Shown here in pieces: positions 53,521-64,000 of a DNA stretch of 64,000 nt. The DNA comes from Rhodothermus marinus (lineage in GTDB: Bacteria > Bacteroidota > Rhodothermia > Rhodothermales > Rhodothermaceae), in NCBI RefSeq assembly GCF_009936275.1, contig NZ_AP019797.1:3331890-3395889 (forward strand), given 5' to 3'. Position 1 is the stretch's first letter. Each line of letters opens with the position of its first letter. Position numbers and translations under genes: made by a program. The notes below the pieces were generated by a model. The model saw nothing but the letters and a program-made list of their open reading frames with translations, did no database searches and was not told the DNA's origin.

Positions 53521-54628
53521 GGTAGTCACTCCCTCTTGTATTGATAATGTCTGAAACTCAGGAATTCTTCCCAACTCCAAACATGCTCAGCCAGGCCAAT
53601 CGCCATAGCTGGCGTGCGGGGTCGATAGCGCCGCCCGCCCGGCAAGCCTCCAACGCGCTCTCGCAACGCCCGATGCGGACGCATCCAGTTGTGCTCGAAC
53701 AAACAGAGCCGCACCAGCGCATCCCAAGTCGTCGGCTGCTTCGCAAAAGCATGGGTTTTGCGCGTCAAGGCGTTGAGCCGATCTCGCAACACCCCGTTGA
53801 GGCGTTCCACGTGCACACAGTAGGGACAGGCGACCGGCTCCCCCACGACCGGGCGCACTTCCACCCCAACGACGCGCCCACCCACCCGTTGCTTGACCGC
53901 TTGCGTCAAGCGCACATCCTGCCGCAGCACCAGGGGCGGACGCCCCCGCTTGCCGCTCCGTTGCGGGTCACGATACACCCGCCGGACGGCCTTTTCGTAG
54001 GCCTTCCGGCCATCACTGACCCAACACACACCGGCCTGCCCCCGAGTGCGCTCACGGCTCAGACGGACCACTTCCGGCGCCAGTGCATCCTCGGTCGGCC
54101 CAAAGGCCCAGGCCACCACAAAGCGGCTGGCCCGCTCCTGGCTTATGCATCCCCAGCGCGGGCCCACCCCGTCCGGCGTGCCTGTCCTGCTTCTAAGCGC
54201 GCCCCGCTTTTTTTAACAAATGACCAGAAGGCGTCCACTTCCAGCTGGCTCAGTTGGAGCTCGCGCACCAGGGCCTGGGTGATGGCCTCCGCATGGTCGG
54301 CCGCCCGCCGCAGCCAGCGGCCGATCGTCTCGTACTTGTGGCCGGTGATCTCCTCGGCGGCGCTCAAACTCCCTCGCCGCATGACGAGGAGCAGGGCACG
54401 GGCCACTTCGGCCGGTGGGGTGCGCAGGCGGTACAAGGGCGTGCCGAAGGTGGGGCCGAAGGAACGCCCGCAGCCGCGACACACCCAGCGCTGGCGCCCG
54501 TCTTTGCGGCCGTTACGCACCGTGTGCTTGTGGCCACAATGGGGACAGGGGGGATTGTTCGGGGATGGTCTTCTCGCCATAGTTCACCTCCTGCCCCATT
54601 ATAATCAACACCATAAAGAGTGACAACC
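53521..54628 (-). mobile_element. Intact IS1-family insertion sequence (1108 bp)
   Basis: Both ends carry a matching terminal inverted repeat: GGTAGTCACTC at the left and GGTTGTCACTC (read from the right), then weaker similarity for ~20 bp more. The element is flanked by an 8-bp target duplication, CAACAGCA. It contains one transposase gene in two overlapping frames on the minus strand, whose stop lies inside the left inverted repeat, as in IS1. Structure and duplication are intact, so the insertion looks recent. It lies between the tRNA-Val terminator and coxM. Confidence 0.9.
53526..54580 (-). CDS. IS1-family transposase made by -1 frameshift (InsA/InsB type)
   Basis: Frame 1 (54580-54143, 145 residues) has a zinc-ribbon (CPHCGHKHTVRNGRKDGRQR, then CRGC), a helix-turn-helix, and the first catalytic Asp in LEVDAFWSFVKK. 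Frame 2 (open through the frame-1 end down to 53526) has the second Asp in WVSDGRKAYEKAV and the Glu helix VERLNGVLRDRLN...RKTHAFAK, typical of IS1 InsB. Frame 1 hits a run of seven A (54214-54208, minus strand). A -1 step there joins FVKKK to RGALRSRTG... and restores the DDE protein of about 350 residues. This parallels the A-run frameshift of IS1. Confidence 0.85.
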
Positions 54629-54706: not shown

Positions 54707-55582
54707 ATGATTCCCCCACCCTTCACGTACGCGGCGCCCGCCAGTCTGGAGGAAGCGCTTGCGTTGCTGCAGCAGCACGGTCCGATGGCCAAGATCCTGG
54801 CCGGCGGCCACAGTCTGCTGCCCATGATGAAGCTCCGCCTGCTGGAGCCCGAAGTGCTCATCGACCTGCGACGCGTGCCCGGCCTGGCCGACATCCGCGA
54901 GGAGAACGGCTACCTGCACATCGGGGCCATGGTGCGCGAGGTCGAACTCGAAGAACACCCGCTCATCCGGGAGAAATACCCGCTGCTCCACGAAACGACG
55001 CGCTGGATCGCCGATCCCCAGGTCCGCAACATGGGCACCGTCGGGGGCAACCTGGCCCACGGCGACCCGGGCAACGACCACCCGGCCACCATGATGGCCT
55101 ACGACGCGCAATTCGTGGTGGTCGGGCCGCGCGGCGAGCGCGTCATCCCGGCGCGGGAGTTTTTCCTGGACTTCTACACGACGGCGCTGGAGCCGGAAGA
55201 AATCCTCACGGCCATCCGCATCCCGACGCCACCTCCGCGCAGCGGCGGCGCCTACGAAAAACTGGAACGCAAGGTGGGCGACTATGCGACAGCCGCCGTG
55301 GCCGTGCAGCTCTCGCTGGCCGAGGACGGCACGCTCAGCTACGTGGGCATCGGCCTGACGAACGTCGCCCACGTGCCGCTGTTTGCCGCCCGGTCGTGCG
55401 CTCATCTGCAGGGCCAGCGTCCCACGCCGGAACGCATCGACGAAGCGGCCCGGATGGCTTCGGAAGACTGCGACCCGCGGTCGGACCTGCGCGGTTCGGC
55501 CGAATACAAACGCGCGATGGTGCGGGAGCTCACCCGTCGCGCTTTTCGTCGAGCCCTTGAGCGAGCCCAGGGAGGTCAATAA
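54707..55582 (+). CDS. coxM: Carbon-monoxide dehydrogenase medium (FAD) subunit
   Basis: The protein has 291 residues. The FAD-binding motifs of the CODH medium chain are [14 protein letters not shown] and [17 protein letters not shown], near-identical in form to characterised CoxM. The C-terminal CO-dehydrogenase flavoprotein domain is complete. It passes electrons from the 2Fe-2S subunit to the respiratory chain. A GGGAG site lies 5 nt before the ATG. It starts the coxM-S-L order usual for form I CODH. The upstream sequence is interrupted by an IS1-family element. Confidence 0.93.
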
Positions 55583-55585
55583 GCC

Positions 55586-56089
55586 ATGGCAAAGCAAACA
55601 GTAACGGTAACCCTTACGGTCAACGGGGAAACACACACGGCCGAAGTCGAGCCCCGCCTGCTGCTCGTGCACTTTCTGCGGGAGCATCTGAACCTGACCG
55701 GCACGCACATCGGCTGCGACACGACGCACTGCGGCGCCTGCACCGTGCTGATGAACGGCCGGGCCGTCAAGTCCTGCACCGTGCTCACCGTACAGGCCGA
55801 CGGGGCCACGATCAAGACGATCGAAGGCATGGCCGAAAACGGCAAAATGCACCCGTTGCAGGAAGGCTTTCACGTGGAGCACGGACTGCAGTGCGGCTAC
55901 TGCACGCCCGGCATGATCATGCGGGCTGCCGAGCTGCTGGCGAAAAATCCCGATCCCACGGAGGACGAGATCCGCTGGGGCATCTCGGGCAACCTGTGTC
56001 GCTGCACCGGCTACGTCAACATCGTGAAGGCCATCCAGTACGCCGCCCGCAAGCTGCGCGAACGCGAGCAGGCAGCGGCCGGCTCTTGA
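55586..56089 (+). CDS. coxS: Carbon-monoxide dehydrogenase small (2Fe-2S) subunit
   Basis: The protein has 167 residues. The plant-type 2Fe-2S cluster is bound by Cys44, 49, 52 and 64 ([22 protein letters not shown] spans them). The second cluster is bound by Cys103, 106, 138 and 140 (GLQCGYC and NLCRC). All eight ligands are present. It links the Mo site in CoxL to FAD in CoxM. It starts 3 bp after coxM. Confidence 0.96.
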
Positions 56090-56123: not shown

Positions 56124-58490
56124 ATGGAAACCGAAGTCCGGACGCCCCCGACGATCTGCGGCATGGGGCATCGCATGAAGCGCAAGGAAGATGCCCGCTT
56201 TCTGTTTGGCAAAGGGCGCTACGTGGACGACATCAAGCTGCCCGGCATGCTCTACATGGACATCGTCCGGAGCCCCTTTGCCCATGCCCGCATCAAAAGC
56301 ATCAACGCCGAACGGGCCCTGGCCATGGACGGCGTCGTGGCCGTCATCACGGGCAGGGACCTGGAGAAATACAACCTGCACTGGATGCCCACGCTGATGG
56401 GCGACACCCAGATGGTCCTGCCCACCGATCGCGTCATGTACCAGGCGCAGGAGGTGGCGGCCGTGATCGCCACGGATCGCTACATCGCGGCCGACGCCGT
56501 CGAGGCCATTGAAGTCGAGTACGAGCCGCTGGAGCCGGTCGTCGATCCGTTCCGGGCGCTGGAGCCCGACGCGCCGGTGCTCCGCACCGACAAGGGCAAG
56601 ACGGACAACCACATCTGGCACTGGGAGGTCGGCGATCGCGAGGCCACCGAGCGCGCCTTTCAGGAGGCCGACGTGGTCGTCAAGCAGCAGATTTACATTC
56701 CGCGCATCCACGTGGCCTCCATCGAGACGTGCGGCTGCATCGCCGACTACAACCCCGTCGAGGGAAAGCTGACCGTCTACATGACCACGCAGGCGCCGCA
56801 CGTGGTGCGGACGGCCCTGGCGCTCGTGGCCGGCCACGTGGGTCTGTCGGAGGAGAAGATCCGGGTCATCTCGCCGGACATCGGCGGCGGCTTCGGGGGC
56901 AAGGTGCCCATCTATCCGGGCTACGTCATCGCCATTGCCGCCTCGGTGCTGCTGGGCAAGCCGGTCAAGTGGATCGAAGATCGGTCCGAAAACCTGCAGG
57001 CCGATTCGTTTGCGCGCGATTACCACATCACGGCCGAGCTGGCCGCCACGAAAGACGGCAAGATCACGGCGCTGCGGATCAAGACGCTGGCCGACCACGG
57101 CTACACCGACGCGGCCGCCAACCCGTCGAAATTCCCGGCCGGGCTGTTTTCGATCTGCACCGGCTCCTACGACATCAAGCACGCCTTCGTCGAAGTCGAC
57201 GCCGTCTATACGAACAAGCCGCCCGGCGGCGTGGCCTACCGCTGCTCGTTCCGCGTGACCGAGGCCGTGCACGCCATCGAACGCATGGTGGACGTGCTGG
57301 CCCAGAAGCTGGGCATGGATCCGGCCGAGCTGCGCTTCAAGAATTTCATCCAGCCGGACCAATTTCCTTACAAATCGGCGCTGGGCTGGGAGTATGACAG
57401 CGGCAACTACCCGGCCGCCCTGCGCAAGGCGATGGACCTGATTGGCTACGAGGAGCTGCGCCGCGAGCAGGCCGAGCGGCGCGCCCGGGGCGAGTTGATG
57501 GGCATCGGCATCAGCAGCTTCACGGAGATCGTGGGCGCGGGTCCCTCGCGGCACTTCGACATCCTCGGCATCAAGATGTTCGACAGCTGCGAGCTGCGCA
57601 TCCATCCCACGGGCAAGGCCATCGCCCGCTTTGGCACGAAGTCGCAGGGCCAGGGTCACGAGACCACCTACGCCCAGATCATCGCCGAGGAGCTGGGCAT
57701 TCCGGCCGCGCACGTGCAGGTGGAAGAGGGTGACACCGACACAGCGCCCTACGGGCTGGGCACCTATGCCAGTCGTTCCACGCCGACGGCCGGTGCCGCC
57801 GCGGCCATGGCCGCCCGCAAGGTGCGCGAAAAGGCCCGCAAAATCGCCGCCTACCTGCTCGAAGTCAGCGAAGAAGACCTCGAATGGGAGCCGGGCGTCT
57901 TCCGCGTCAAAGGCGCGCCGGACAAGTCCGTCACCATTCAGGAGATCGCCTTTGCGGCCTACACGAACCATCCGCCGGGCATGGAGGCCGGCCTGGAGGC
58001 CGTCCACTACTACGATCCGCCCAACCTCACCTTCCCCTTCGGTTCGTACATCTGCGTGGTGGACATCGACAAAGGCACCGGCCAGGTGAAGATCCGTCGC
58101 TTCGTGGCCGTGGACGACTGCGGCCATGTGATCAATCCGATGATCGTCGAAGGCCAGATCCACGGCGGCCTCACGATGGGCTTCGCGCCGGCCATGATGG
58201 AGGAGCTGGTCTACGACGAAGAGGGCAACATCCTGACCGGCTCGTTCATGGACTACCTGCTGCCCACGGCCGTCGAGACGCCGCGCTGGGAGACGGCCCG
58301 CACCGTCACGCCCTCGCCGCACCATCCGCTGGGCGCCAAAGGCGTGGGCGAATCGGCCACGGTGGGCGCTCCCGCGGCCATCGTCAACGCCGTCGTCGAT
58401 GCGCTCTCGCCCTATGGCGTGACGCACATCGACATCCCGATCACGCCCTATAAAGTCTGGAAAATCCTGCACGAAAAAGGCGTGGTCTGA
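56124..58490 (+). CDS. coxL: Carbon-monoxide dehydrogenase large (Mo-Cu) subunit, form I
   Basis: The protein has 788 residues, matching CoxL. The active-site loop reads A-Y-R-C374-S-F-R, the AYxCSFR signature that separates true form I CODH from form II homologues (AYRGAGR). Cys374 would be the copper ligand bridging Cu to Mo. Molybdopterin-contacting [11 protein letters not shown] and the catalytic Glu743 in [14 protein letters not shown] are present. The enzyme oxidises CO to CO2 with water. It lies 34 bp after coxS and is followed by the maturation genes. Confidence 0.95.
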
Positions 58491-58592: not shown

Positions 58593-59144
58593 ATGAAAAC
58601 CACCATCGAGAAAACTTTTACCGTTCGCCAGCCGCTGGAAAAGGTCTGGACTTACCTGAGCGATCCGGCCAAGGTGGTGCCCTGCGTGCCCGGGGCCCAG
58701 CTCACCGAACAGCTCGACGAACGCCACTACCGGGGCACCGTCAGCCTGAAGGTGGGACCGGTCAGCGCCAGCTACAAAGGGGAAATCACCATCGAGACGC
58801 TCGACCACGAGACGCACACGATCCAGCTCGTGGGCAAAGGGCTGGACGCACGTGGCAAGGGAAGTGCCTCGATGACCATGCGCGGCCAGGCCCGGGCGCT
58901 GGACGACGGCACCACCGAGATCACCAATCAGATCGAAATCTCCGTGACCGGCATGCTGGCGCAATTCGGCTCGCGCCTGATCGAGGATGTCTCGAGCCGT
59001 CTTTTCGATCAGTTTACCGAATGCTTCGAGTCGCTGCTGGCGGGCGAGGCGCCGGAAGATCAGGCGCTCAGCGCCGGCTCGCTGATCAAGGAAGGCATCA
59101 AATCGGTTGCCGGACGATTCTTCGGGAAGAAGGAAGGCGAATGA
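58593..59144 (+). CDS. coxG: CoxG-type SRPBCC protein
   Basis: The protein has 183 residues. It has the SRPBCC fold of the 'CO dehydrogenase subunit G' family: KTFTVRQPLEKVWTYLSDPAKVVPCVPGAQ, GPVSASYKGEITIETLD and ARGKGSASMTMRGQ. CoxG is thought to help anchor CODH at the membrane. The last ~30 residues are extended and basic. It follows coxL after 102 bp and overlaps coxD by 4 bp (ATGA). Confidence 0.9.
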   Translation: MKTTIEKTFTVRQPLEKVWTYLSDPAKVVPCVPGAQLTEQLDERHYRGTVSLKVGPVSASYKGEITIETLDHETHTIQLVGKGLDARGKGSASMTMRGQARALDDGTTEITNQIEISVTGMLAQFGSRLIEDVSSRLFDQFTECFESLLAGEAPEDQALSAGSLIKEGIKSVAGRFFGKKEGE

Positions 59145-60034
59145 GTACGGAGGCCGCCGCCCGCATTGCGGGGTTGATCGAAGGACTGGAGCAGCAGGGC
59201 TACGTGGTGGACGAGGCGCTGGCCACGGTACTGTACCTGGTACTGACGCTGCGCCGGCCGCTGCTCGTGGAGGGCGACGCCGGCGTGGGCAAAACCGAAA
59301 TCGCCTACGCGCTGGCCGGCTACCTCGACACGGAGCTGATCCGCCTGCAGTGCTACGAAGGGCTCGACGTCCACTCGGCCGTCTACGAGTGGAACTATCC
59401 CCGCCAGCTGCTGGCCATCAAGCTCTGGGAAAGGAGCGACGTGCCGCTGGAAGAGCGCGAGCGGCACCTGTTCAGCGAAACCTATCTGCTGGCGCGGCCG
59501 CTGCTGAAGGCCATTCAGGCCGAGGCGAAAGCGCCCGTGCTGCTTATCGACGAGATCGACCGGGCCGACGAGGAGTTCGAGGCTTTCCTGCTGGAGCTGC
59601 TGTCGGCCTTTCAGATCTCGATCCCCGAGCTGGGCACGATCCGCGCCCGCCATGTGCCGTACGTGGTGCTGACCTCCAACCGCACGCGCGAGCTGAGCGA
59701 CGCGCTCAAGCGGCGCTGCCTGTATTACTGGCTCGACTACCCCGACGAGGCGAAAGAGCTGCGTATCATCCGGAAGCGGCTGCCGGACATCGAGACCGAG
59801 CTGGCCCGCCAGGTGGTGCGCTTCGTGCAGGCGCTGCGCCGAGAGCGGCTGCACAAGATCCCCGGCATCGCCGAGACGCTCGACTGGGCGCGGGCGCTCG
59901 TGGCGCTGGGCGTGCGTCGGATCGACGAGGCCACGGTGGCACGCACGGCGGGCTGCCTGCTCAAGTCGGCCGAAGACCTCGAACGCCTGCGCAACCACGT
60001 GCTGGAAGAGCTGCTGGCCCAAATCGAAGCCTGA
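59141..60034 (+). CDS. coxD: MoxR-family AAA+ ATPase CoxD
   Basis: The product is 297 residues from the ATG at 59141, which overlaps the coxG stop. Walker A is GDAGVGKTEIAYALAG, Walker B is PVLLIDEIDRADEEFEAFLL, and sensor 1 is VVLTSNRTRELSDALKRRCL. In Oligotropha carboxidovorans, CoxD is a membrane-associated chaperone needed for sulfuration of the Mo-S-Cu site. It normally pairs with the VWA protein CoxE, encoded next. Confidence 0.93.
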   Translation: MSTEAAARIAGLIEGLEQQGYVVDEALATVLYLVLTLRRPLLVEGDAGVGKTEIAYALAGYLDTELIRLQCYEGLDVHSAVYEWNYPRQLLAIKLWERSDVPLEERERHLFSETYLLARPLLKAIQAEAKAPVLLIDEIDRADEEFEAFLLELLSAFQISIPELGTIRARHVPYVVLTSNRTRELSDALKRRCLYYWLDYPDEAKELRIIRKRLPDIETELARQVVRFVQALRRERLHKIPGIAETLDWARALVALGVRRIDEATVARTAGCLLKSAEDLERLRNHVLEELLAQIEA

Positions 60035-60037
60035 GCC

Positions 60038-61198
60038 ATGAGGGCGCCGGGCACCATACCGCCGACCTTTTCGGCCTCCACGAACTTCACCGGGGCGGTG
60101 CGGGGCTTCTGCACCTTCCTGAAAAGCCATGGCTTCACGATCGGCGTTGCCGAGACGCTCGACGCGTTGCACATAGCCCGGAGCGAGCTGTTGCACACGC
60201 CCGAGCGTTTCCGGACGGCCCTGCGTGCGCTGCTGTGCATCTCGCCGGACGAATGCCGGCGCTTCGACGTGCTGTTCGACACCTACTGGCTCGGCCGCTC
60301 GCCGGACGGCGACACGCCGCCTGCCCCGCGCCAGCGGCGTCAACGTCCCCCGGCCACCGAACGGGCCGCCCCGCTGCTCATGGCCCTGCAGCAGACGGCG
60401 GCCCCGCCCGAAGAAGACGGCAAGACCACCACGGGCGCCAGCACGGCCCACCGGCTCCGCCAGGTGGACTTTGCCCGCGTGCCGGCACCCGAGCAGGAAC
60501 AGCTCGAAGCGCTGGCCGAACAGCTCTTCCGCCGGTTGCACGTGCGTCTTTCACGCCGGGAAAAAGCCGCCCGCCGCGGCCGTCGCATCGACCTGCGGCG
60601 CACGATCCGCCGCAACCTCGACCGGGGCGGCGAGCTGGTCACGCTCCGCTACCGCCGACGCCAGCCGGATCGTCCCCGCCTGGTGGCGCTGCTCGACGTG
60701 AGCGGCTCCATGGACCGCTACAGCTACTTCCTGCTGCGCTTCCTGCACGCGCTCCAGCAACACTTCCGGCGCGTCGATTCGTTCGTATTCAGCACCGAGC
60801 TGACCTGCATCACCGAGCTGCTGCGCCAGCCGACGCTGCCCGACAGCCTGCGTCAGCTGGCCGAAACACCCACGCCCTGGTCCAGCGGCACCCGCATCGG
60901 CGCCTGCCTCGAGGCGTTCGTGGCGCATTACGGCCGCCGGCTGCTCTCGCGCCGCACGCTCGTACTCATCCTGAGCGACGGTCTCGATACGGGCGACCCG
61001 GCCCTGCTGGCCCACGCACTGCAGGCCATCCGTGCCCGTTGCCGCCGGATCATCTGGCTTAACCCGCTCATGGGCATGGACGGCTACGCACCGCTGGCCC
61101 GGGGCATGCAGGCGGCCCTGCCCTACCTCGACGTGTTTCATCCCGCCCACAACCTCGACAGCCTGCTCCGCCTGGAGCAGCATCTGCGCCATGTTTGA
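60038..61198 (+). CDS. coxE: CoxE, VWA domain CODH maturation protein
   Basis: The protein has 386 residues. The C-terminal half is a VWA domain of the CoxE class with MIDAS D-V-S-G-S in LVALLDVSGSMDRYSYFLLR and the later SSGTRIGACLEAF and LILSDGLDTG. MoxR/VWA pairs act together in metal-cofactor insertion; CoxE is assigned to active-site assembly together with CoxD and CoxF. It overlaps coxF by 5 bp. Confidence 0.93.
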   Translation: MRAPGTIPPTFSASTNFTGAVRGFCTFLKSHGFTIGVAETLDALHIARSELLHTPERFRTALRALLCISPDECRRFDVLFDTYWLGRSPDGDTPPAPRQRRQRPPATERAAPLLMALQQTAAPPEEDGKTTTGASTAHRLRQVDFARVPAPEQEQLEALAEQLFRRLHVRLSRREKAARRGRRIDLRRTIRRNLDRGGELVTLRYRRRQPDRPRLVALLDVSGSMDRYSYFLLRFLHALQQHFRRVDSFVFSTELTCITELLRQPTLPDSLRQLAETPTPWSSGTRIGACLEAFVAHYGRRLLSRRTLVLILSDGLDTGDPALLAHALQAIRARCRRIIWLNPLMGMDGYAPLARGMQAALPYLDVFHPAHNLDSLLRLEQHLRHV

Positions 61199-62228
61199 CC
61201 CGATTCTCGAACGTGCCCGCGAGCAGACGGAACGGGGTGAACCCTGCGCCCTGGCCATCGTCGTGCGCTACGAAGCGCCGATCTCCGGCAAGCCCGGCGA
61301 CAAGGCGCTGATCCTGCCCGACGGCACGCTGCACGGCTGGGTGGGCGGCGGCTGCACGCGCCCGGTAGTTATTCGCGAAGCCCTGCGGGCCATGCGCGAC
61401 GGCCGCCCCCGTCTGGTGCGCATCACGCCTGAAGCGGCCGAAGTCGAAGTCGAGGGCATCGTCGCCTACTCGATGACCTGCTACAGCGGCGGCACGCTCG
61501 ACGTGTACATCGAGCCGCTGCTACCCCCGCCGCAGTTGCTGGTGCTGGGCCGCTCGGCCGTGGCTCAGGCTCTGGTGCGCCTGGGCCGGGCCCTCGGCTA
61601 TCGCGTGCTGGTCGCCGACCCCGAAGCTTCCACCGCGCTGTTTCCGGAAGCCGACTTTCTGGTGCCGTCGTTCGCCCTCGACAACCTGCCGCTGACGCCC
61701 TGGACGTTCGCCGTCGTGGCCACCCAGGGCGAAGGCGACGAAGAAGCGCTGGAAGCCGCCCTCGCCCATCCTTTTCCGTACGTGGCGCTGGTGGCCAGCC
61801 GCCGCAAGGCCGCCCGCCTGCGCGAAGTGCTCGCCGAACGCGGTGTGCCGGCCGACCGTCTGGCGACCGTGCGCGCCCCGGCCGGACTGAACCTCGGCGC
61901 CCGCACCCCGGAGGAAATTGCCCTGAGCATCCTGGCCGAGATCGTGCAGGAACGGCACCGGAATCCCGTGCCGGCGCTCGCCGACGAACCGGCTCCGGCC
62001 GAAGGCCTGATCGAAACCACGCTGCACATTGAGGGCATGAGCTGCGCGCACTGCCTCCACACCGTCGAAAAGACGCTCAAAGCATTGCCCGGCGTGGTGG
62101 TGCGCACGGTGGAGCTCGGCTACGCCGAAGTGGCCTACGACCCCGCCCGGGTAACGCTGAGTGCGCTGGCCGAGGCGCTCGAAGCCCGGGGGTATCATCT
62201 GCGCACCGACACCGTGGCCGAACCATGA
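61194..62228 (+). CDS. coxF: CoxF-like XdhC protein fused to a C-terminal copper-binding HMA domain
   Basis: The product is 344 residues from the ATG at 61194. The first ~115 residues are the XdhC/CoxI N-domain (LILPDGTLHGWVGGGCTRPVV). A Rossmann-like domain follows (LLVLGRSAVAQALVRLGRALGYRVLVADP) with the C-terminal XdhC block (RAPAGLNLGARTPEEIALSIL). After a short linker, residues ~277-340 form a heavy-metal-associated domain with M-S-C284-A-H-C287 in HIEGMSCAHCLHTVEKTL and a GVVVRTVELGYAEVAYDP tail, as in CopZ-type chaperones. I know of no such fusion in the reference cox cluster. It suggests direct copper delivery during cofactor assembly. It overlaps coxE by 5 bp and the next gene by 4 bp. 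Confidence 0.85.
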   Translation, partial: FDPILERAREQTERGEPCALAIVVRYEAPISGKPGDKALILPDGTLHGWVGGGCTRPVVIREALRAMRDGRPRLVRITPEAAEVEVEGIVAYSMTCYSGGTLDVYIEPLLPPPQLLVLGRSAVAQALVRLGRALGYRVLVADPEASTALFPEADFLVPSFALDNLPLTPWTFAVVATQGEGDEEALEAALAHPFPYVALVASRRKAARLREVLAERGVPADRLATVRAPAGLNLGARTPEEIALSILAEIVQERHRNPVPALADEPAPAEGLIETTLHIEGMSCAHCLHTVEKTLKALPGVVVRTVELGYAEVAYDPARVTLSALAEALEARGYHLRTDTVAEP

Positions 62229-62857
62229 AGGTACCGGAACGCGTGGCGGCCATCGTGCTGGCGGCCGGCGCTTCCCGGCGCATGGGCGGCCGCAACAAGC
62301 TGCTGTTGCCCTTCGGCGGCCAGCCCCTCGTGCGCCACGTCGTGACCACGATTCTGGCAAGCCGGGCCGATCCGGTCCTTGTGGTGCTGGGACACGAGGC
62401 CGAGGCCGTCCGCGCTGCGCTGGCCGAACTGCCCGTCACGTTCGTTCACAACCCGCGCCATGCCGAGGGCATGACCACCTCGATCCAGTCGGGCGTGGCG
62501 GCGGCGCCGGCGGACGTGCTCGGCTACATGATCTGCCTGTCGGACCTGCCCCTGATCGAAGCGGCGGAGTACGACCGGCTCCTCGACGCGTTCCGGGAAG
62601 CCCACGCCCGCGATCCGGCCTGCATCATCGTGCCCGAATTCGAGGGACGGCGCGGCAACCCCGTCCTGTTCGCGGCCCGCTACCGAACGGCCATCCTGGC
62701 CGAGGAGCGGCTGACCGGCTGCCGCGGCCTCGTGCAGCGCCATCCCGAACACGTCGTGCGCGTGCCCATGCCCACCGATCACATCCTGCAGGACATTGAC
62801 ACGCCCGAAGCGTTCGCAGCGCTCACCGAACGCACGCCCGGGCAAACACCGCGCTGA
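62225..62857 (+). CDS. MocA/MobA-like molybdenum cofactor cytidylyltransferase
   Basis: The protein has 210 residues. The nucleotidyltransferase opening is AAIVLAAGASRRMGGRNKLLLPFG (the LAAGxSxRMG..K signature). Other motifs are ICLSDLPLI, corresponding to the metal-binding 'D' region, and GNPVLFAARYR. This subgroup attaches CMP to the Mo cofactor for xanthine-oxidase-type enzymes, and the CODH Mo-pterin is a cytosine dinucleotide. It is translationally coupled to coxF and probably is the last gene of the operon. Confidence 0.88.
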   Translation: MKVPERVAAIVLAAGASRRMGGRNKLLLPFGGQPLVRHVVTTILASRADPVLVVLGHEAEAVRAALAELPVTFVHNPRHAEGMTTSIQSGVAAAPADVLGYMICLSDLPLIEAAEYDRLLDAFREAHARDPACIIVPEFEGRRGNPVLFAARYRTAILAEERLTGCRGLVQRHPEHVVRVPMPTDHILQDIDTPEAFAALTERTPGQTPR

Positions 62858-63236: not shown

Positions 63237-64000
63237 TCACGAAGACACGTTGAGCGGACGCGGAAGCGGCGGGCGCTCGCCGTGGATGGGCGCGTCGCGT
63301 TCCCGGAGCGGCCGCGCCGAACGTCCGTGCAGCACGGCCTGGATTTCGGCCAGCGCCGAGAGCGCGATCTCCTCGGCCGTCTCCGTGCCGATGTCCAGCC
63401 CGACGGGCCCGTAAATGCGCGCGCGCTCGGCCTCCAGGCGCTCGCCGTGCGTGCGGGCCAGCTCGCTCAGCATCCGTTCGGTGCGCTCCTTCGGCCCCAG
63501 CATTCCGATGTACGGGATGTCGGTCTCAAAGAGCAGCGTCCCCAGGATCTGCCGATCCCGCAGGTAGGTGTGGTTCATGACCAGCGCGGCCGTGCGGCGA
63601 TCGACCCGCACATGCTGCGTGAGCTGCTCCGGGTGCATCAGGAAGCGACAGGTGTCCGCTTCGGGAAAGCGTCGGGCCAGCTCTTCCGGCGGACGGCGGC
63701 CGATGACCTCCACTTCCCAGCCCAGCCCCCGCGCAAAGCGCACCACCGGAAACACGTCGTGTCCCTCGCCGAAGACGAGCAGGCGCACGGGTGGCTGCAC
63801 GGCCTCCAGCAGCACGTCCATCTGCGCCGGGCCTTCGGCGACGCGGTGGGTGGCCCAGCCCCGCTCCTCGCGTCCGGCCAGCAGGCGCTCGAGCATCTGG
63901 CGGGCCGCCTCGTAGATCAACCGGGCCGGAGGTCCTTCCAGCAGATCGCCTTCGGCGCCTCCGTCGGCCCGGAGCAGCAGGTGCCGCCCGAGCCAGTTCG
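63237..64000 (-). CDS. XdhC/CoxI-family protein (5' end outside window)
   Basis: The frame is open to the right edge, so the N-terminus is missing; an apparent start near 63920 is only a TTG. The visible ~253 residues include an N-domain fragment, the Rossmann segment VRLLVFGEGHDVFPVVRFARGLGWEVEVI and the C-terminal ALVMNHTYLRDRQIL...YIGMLGPKERTERML...IYGPVGLDIGTETAEEIALSALAE. This is the full XdhC C-domain signature, closer to canonical XdhC/CoxI than the coxF product, and it lacks an HMA domain. XdhC-type proteins insert or sulfurate Mo cofactor. It converges on the cox operon. Confidence 0.9.
   Translation of the reverse strand, partial: NWLGRHLLLRADGGAEGDLLEGPPARLIYEAARQMLERLLAGREERGWATHRVAEGPAQMDVLLEAVQPPVRLLVFGEGHDVFPVVRFARGLGWEVEVIGRRPPEELARRFPEADTCRFLMHPEQLTQHVRVDRRTAALVMNHTYLRDRQILGTLLFETDIPYIGMLGPKERTERMLSELARTHGERLEAERARIYGPVGLDIGTETAEEIALSALAEIQAVLHGRSARPLRERDAPIHGERPPLPRPLNVSS

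Follow-up and report, generated by a model that had tools for sequence, protein, structure and literature searches.

A CopZ-type domain on CoxF of Rhodothermus marinus points to CoxF as the probable copper deliverer of form I CO dehydrogenase

Form I CO dehydrogenase (CODH) is a molybdenum-copper enzyme with a unique Mo-S-Cu site. The maturation protein CoxF of Rhodothermus marinus ends in a domain of copper-chaperone type, which raises the question of how copper gets to that site and whether CoxF brings it there.

The existing model of CoxF combines mutants with weak sequence motifs. In Oligotropha carboxidovorans, CODH from CoxF and CoxE mutants retains its sulfurated molybdenum and lacks copper; the same study proposed CoxF as the copper supplier and drew attention to two sequence features, a proposed phytase motif near the C-terminus and the stretch M107CPSHGTM (PMC4240915). 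Among the matches listed in our survey, the phytase histidine is retained in 3/27 short tails of that type, and the M107CPSHGTM cysteine is common to ordinary XdhC proteins, the C-x-S-x-G spacing being specific to CoxF. In the open-access papers searched, CoxF and copper led to the O. carboxidovorans work and otherwise to papers unrelated to the fusion, and none treats XdhC together with "HMA domain" or "YHS domain." A copper-chaperone domain on CoxF, with an apparent swap for YHS in relatives, constitutes an independent line of evidence and supplies precise residues to mutate.

The coxF-HMA gene and its surroundings

The window, meaning the whole stretch of 64,000 nucleotides analyzed, contains a complete form I cox cluster, coxMSLGDEF-mocA:

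54707..55582, + strand: coxM, FAD subunit (PF00941, PF03450)
55586..56089, + strand: coxS, 2Fe-2S subunit (PF01799, PF00111)
56124..58490, + strand: coxL, large subunit of form I type (AYRCSFR present; TIGR02416, 1294.6 bits against a cut-off of 991)
58593..59144, + strand: coxG (PF06240)
59141..60034, + strand: coxD, MoxR-type AAA ATPase
60038..61198, + strand: coxE, VWA protein (PF05762, E 3.9e-61)
61191..62228, + strand: coxF-HMA, whole gene from ATG to stop, 345 aa in a single unbroken frame
61191..61955, + strand: XdhC/CoxF core of coxF-HMA, residues 1-255 (PF02625 and PF13478)
61956..62009, + strand: linker, residues about 256-273, flexible, of low model confidence and the fastest-evolving part
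62019..62198, + strand: HMA (CopZ-type) domain, residues 277-336 (PF00403, E 2.7e-10; CopZ folds, TMt 0.85-0.87)
62037..62054, + strand: MSCAHC motif (Cys285, Cys288), putative metal site (MSCxHC in 9/9 fused genomes)
62225..62857, + strand: mocA-like molybdenum cofactor cytidylyltransferase (TIGR03310, 171.9 bits, below the cut-off of 186)

The TIGR02416 score above cut-off and the AYRCSFR motif of CoxL identify the enzyme as form I CODH, and coxF has the position expected of the family, next to coxE in a form I coxL cluster. Its start overlaps coxE by 8 bases and its stop overlaps mocA by 4. All Pfam matches of the protein exceed the curated cut-offs (XdhC_CoxI, E 4.1e-18; XdhC_C, E 5.7e-33; HMA, E 2.7e-10), and they agree with the open reading frame and with the first-pass annotation, which had read an XdhC core and an HMA domain with M-S-C-A-H-C in one frame. 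That annotation placed the gene at 61194-62228 with the cysteines at 284 and 287; the stop was right, and the start and numbering needed correction, since the ATG lies at 61191, one codon ahead, and the cysteines are thus Cys285 and Cys288. The core holds Cys55, Cys97, and the C-x-S-x-G signature of CoxF.

Three other features of this genome lie outside the cox genes themselves. An IS1-like insertion element (window 53526-54580, − strand; two ORFs, with weak, sub-threshold DDE_Tnp_IS1 and Zn-ribbon matches) ends about 125 bases before coxM and may affect the cox promoter. A second XdhC-family gene (window 63237-63920, − strand) faces the cluster and runs past the window; no metal module was found in its 453-aa open frame. 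A further CoxL-like enzyme is encoded outside the window (G000:C1:624754-627048) and scores 779 bits, below the form I cut-off.

A survey of 245 genomes of the class (CoxF at E <= 1e-25, form I coxL by curated cut-off) found CoxF-HMA in 9, and it is these same genomes, and no others, that have form I coxL; within the class the fusion and form I CODH go together without exception. The HMA domain is covered in all nine CoxF proteins, which come from the window's genome, five others of the same genus, and three further genera. Within the genus, five of the six other genomes carry the fusion, and the sixth (G001) lacks form I coxL as well. Mean dN/dS in the genus is 0.109 for the HMA domain, 0.094 for the core, and 0.209 for the linker; the fused HMA is under purifying selection near the level of the core, and the linker is looser. 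Conservation at full length in nine genomes and purifying selection rule out a chance ORF or a mis-assembly.

In the AlphaFold model a linker of low confidence leads into an HMA domain with ferredoxin-like fold, and Foldseek matches the modeled domain to 2l3m (TMt 0.87), a copper-ion-binding protein from Bacillus, and to CopZ (2qif, TMt 0.85). In a small tree of 24 short Rhodothermales domains, the fused domains and stand-alone Rhodothermales CopZ-like proteins form one branch (support 95/96); domains within longer ORFs lie apart from this branch, and the fused ones group with neither P-type ATPase nor MerA-like domains. The genome retains a separate stand-alone CopZ-like gene, 57% identical to the fused HMA. 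The PF00403 match and the MxCxxC motif are those of a CopZ-type domain, and the CopZ likeness noted at first pass is borne out by the structure matches and the tree. Against the NCBIfam CopZ models, which are narrow and made for whole proteins, the domain scores 56.0 bits, below the cut-off of 91, and for this reason we call it CopZ-type rather than CopZ. CopZ models and structures score better than those of a MerP-type (mercury) domain, which was ruled out. As judged from sequence and the predicted structure, then, the fused HMA is a CopZ-type domain with a metal-transfer fold.

Tail modules on CoxF and on other XdhC proteins

The R. marinus fusion had looked like a one-off. A C-terminal metal module on CoxF is instead widespread, with HMA as one of its forms and YHS as the usual one. 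A CoxF core-pattern scan of a collection of 84,980 species gave at least 80 loci, mostly in form I clusters, and past the core these proteins carry a YHS domain, a CCGG-type cysteine tail, both, an HMA domain, or a short tail. The 89 CoxF-clade tails (matches listed, class, and plasmid rows) comprise 34 with YHS, 3 with YHS and CC, 9 with CC, 9 with HMA, 27 RGQR-type short tails, and 7 others; a metal module is present on 55/89, among the matches listed. HMA on CoxF was found in Rhodothermales only, among the matches listed, and appears to be a rare version of the tail module. A tblastn search of 72,556 plasmids returned no XdhC-HMA covering 80% of the query.

At the place of the HMA, YHS is found on CoxF of Chloroflexota, Gemmatimonadota, other Bacteroidota, Acidobacteriota, SAR324, some Proteobacteria, and one haloarchaeon. 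It passes the Pfam cut-off in some Bacteroidota and Acidobacteriota proteins and in those of Thermomicrobium, bacterium HR26, a gammaproteobacterium, Paraburkholderia, and the haloarchaeon; in Deinococcus the domain is degenerate and falls just short. Even phylum draws, each made up of the best 30 matches and with a few rows common to the first sample, show YHS on 30/30 CoxF from Chloroflexota (two of these tails were judged by eye) and on 29/30 from Gemmatimonadota; it is common in Acidobacteriota and rare in Pseudomonadota. Three cysteine columns are invariant in 37 aligned CoxF YHS domains, and the fourth is Cys in 30. One Chloroflexota CoxF (L056, ORF from 8947) has two tandem YHS domains.

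CCGG tails occur on Burkholderiales CoxF, and alphaproteobacteria, O. carboxidovorans included, have neither module. Long low-complexity Burkholderiales tails end in SCCGG-type motifs, often repeated (L064, L065, L071, L074, L075, L076, L080, L084), and possibly bind metal. The one actinobacterial case, Nonomuraea, has no module; its CoxL (L207, 6671-9337) reads AYACSFR where other form I enzymes read AYRCSFR. Among the cox clusters examined whose CoxF has no module, none contains a stand-alone HMA or YHS gene. Six clusters (L026, L029, L034, L047, L051, L082) have a second CoxF-like XdhC gene without metal module just downstream, which in L029 and L034 looks like a doubled core.

Both the tree and the C-x-S-x-G spacing place the R. 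marinus protein among CoxF and apart from other XdhC proteins; the spacing has Ser in 88/89 CoxF, and its column is absent in 69/69 other XdhC. HMA, YHS, or CCGG tails are on 0/100 non-CoxF XdhC proteins (69, plus 29 from Chloroflexota, plus L060 and L105, placed here as they lie outside the CoxF clade). The first-pass annotation had allowed that the fusion might also be common in XdhC proteins unlinked to form I CODH; this count excludes it. Comparison with the 55/89 CoxF among the matches listed gives a Fisher p of about 2e-24, with rows taken as independent though related, a caveat offset by the spread of modules over many phyla and by the many controls from the same genomes as CoxF.

On the CoxF core tree the tail label changes once for HMA, once for CC, and four times between metal and none. 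HMA has a single origin (support 94/72) among YHS-bearing relatives, its Rhodothermales branch adjoining YHS-bearing Bacteroidota and Acidobacteriota, so that HMA probably took the place of a metal module of an unrelated kind. As to its position in the local YHS group, a tree with those YHS rows as one clade is not rejected (AU p 0.38). Since YHS is present in both deep CoxF groups, it is likely the older state, by parsimony and root.

Proposed copper delivery and its alternatives

Copper loading best explains the presence of two unrelated soft-metal modules at the same place on the sole XdhC branch with a copper-needing client. This pattern, together with the copper-free CODH of O. carboxidovorans CoxF mutants (PMC4240915), the Cu-specific response that a YHS domain confers on an adenylyl cyclase (PMC4626032), the conserved cysteines of CoxF YHS domains, the 9/245 co-occurrence, the specificity of the module to CoxF, and the CopZ affinity of the HMA, favors as our best reading that CoxF would be a dedicated copper donor and its tail an exchangeable Cu-loading module. 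At a probability of about 0.7, CoxF is a form I CODH maturase whose XdhC core docks at the Mo site and whose C-terminal module brings Cu(I) there. The core would dock on the Mo site of apo-CODH, Cys285 and Cys288 would pick up Cu(I) from the cell pool, and the linker would swing the HMA domain to the core. Invariant Cys97, which coincides with the "Cu site" suggested in O. carboxidovorans, may relay Cu(I), which would then pass to the sulfido-Mo/Cys-thiolate site of CoxL. The module would vary by lineage: CopZ-type HMA in Rhodothermales, YHS in most others, and a CCGG tail in Burkholderiales. Counting against copper delivery, domains of both families are able to hold metals besides copper, and the nine HMA cases represent one origin. 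Nor is the module universally needed, since alphaproteobacterial CoxF, the sole experimentally studied kind we found, has none, and in the cox clusters examined no separate HMA or YHS gene stands in for it.

The module could alternatively be a copper sensor or gate, switching CoxF on or off by binding copper other than that of CODH. The sole YHS domain with functional data that we found confers a Cu-specific response on an adenylyl cyclase, as a sensor that activates it (PMC4626032), and delivery is possible without modules, given that alphaproteobacteria lack them. The fused HMA, however, is of CopZ chaperone type with a metal-transfer fold, and CoxF itself is required for copper insertion in O. 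carboxidovorans (PMC4240915), which leaves the sensor unlikely. We consider it improbable that the metal is one other than copper (Zn, Ni, Hg) or that the module is a relic of fusion with no part in CODH maturation: the HMA is under purifying selection near that of the core, occurs strictly together with form I CODH, and has CopZ-type affinity, all of which speaks against this, even if metal specificity is not readable from sequence alone and some lineages lack the module. Least probable is that the tail cysteines serve sulfur chemistry (carrying persulfide toward Mo sulfuration) or Mo-sulfido protection. In favor of this, sulfurated Moco is guarded by XdhC in other enzyme systems, a protective role was also proposed for CoxF (PMC4240915), and CCGG tails are conceivable persulfide carriers. 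Against it, the HMA and YHS folds bind metal, XdhC proteins generally serve sulfurated Moco enzymes yet 0/100 others have a module, and CoxF mutants keep the Mo sulfur and lack copper.

Returning to copper delivery, we lean toward a wider reading in which CoxF would be the dedicated copper metallochaperone of Mo-Cu CODH in Bacteria and Archaea, with a C-terminal slot for exchangeable modules: YHS probably ancestral, CCGG and CopZ-type HMA later, and the module lost in alphaproteobacteria. That loss would have hidden the copper-delivery site in the only model organism studied. The HMA tail and the unrelated YHS module at the same place in relatives point to CoxF as the long-sought copper deliverer, and because modules could be moved between CoxF proteins, copper delivery is directly testable.

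Comparison with known systems

CoxF of O. carboxidovorans (Afipia; pHCG3) resembles the R. marinus protein in its core (41% identical), its place after coxE, and its invariant core cysteines, but it has a short basic tail (RHGQRQS...) and no metal domain. XdhC/CoxI maturation proteins of other xanthine-oxidase-family enzymes have both core domains in common with it and, in most cases, the cysteines of the core, whereas they have neither a metal module (0/100) nor the C-x-S-x-G spacing. CopZ copper chaperones have the same HMA fold and MSCxHC motif, and those of Rhodothermales share a branch with the fused domain; they stand alone, while the R. marinus domain sits on an XdhC-type maturase. The YHS-type CoxF proteins (Thermomicrobium roseum, Thermogemmatispora, Saprospiraceae, and Natronorubrum, among others) like that of R. 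marinus combine a CoxF core, a linker, and a C-terminal metal module in form I clusters, and differ in that the module is YHS (PF04945), of another family and fold than HMA, in some cases with CCGG motifs as well.
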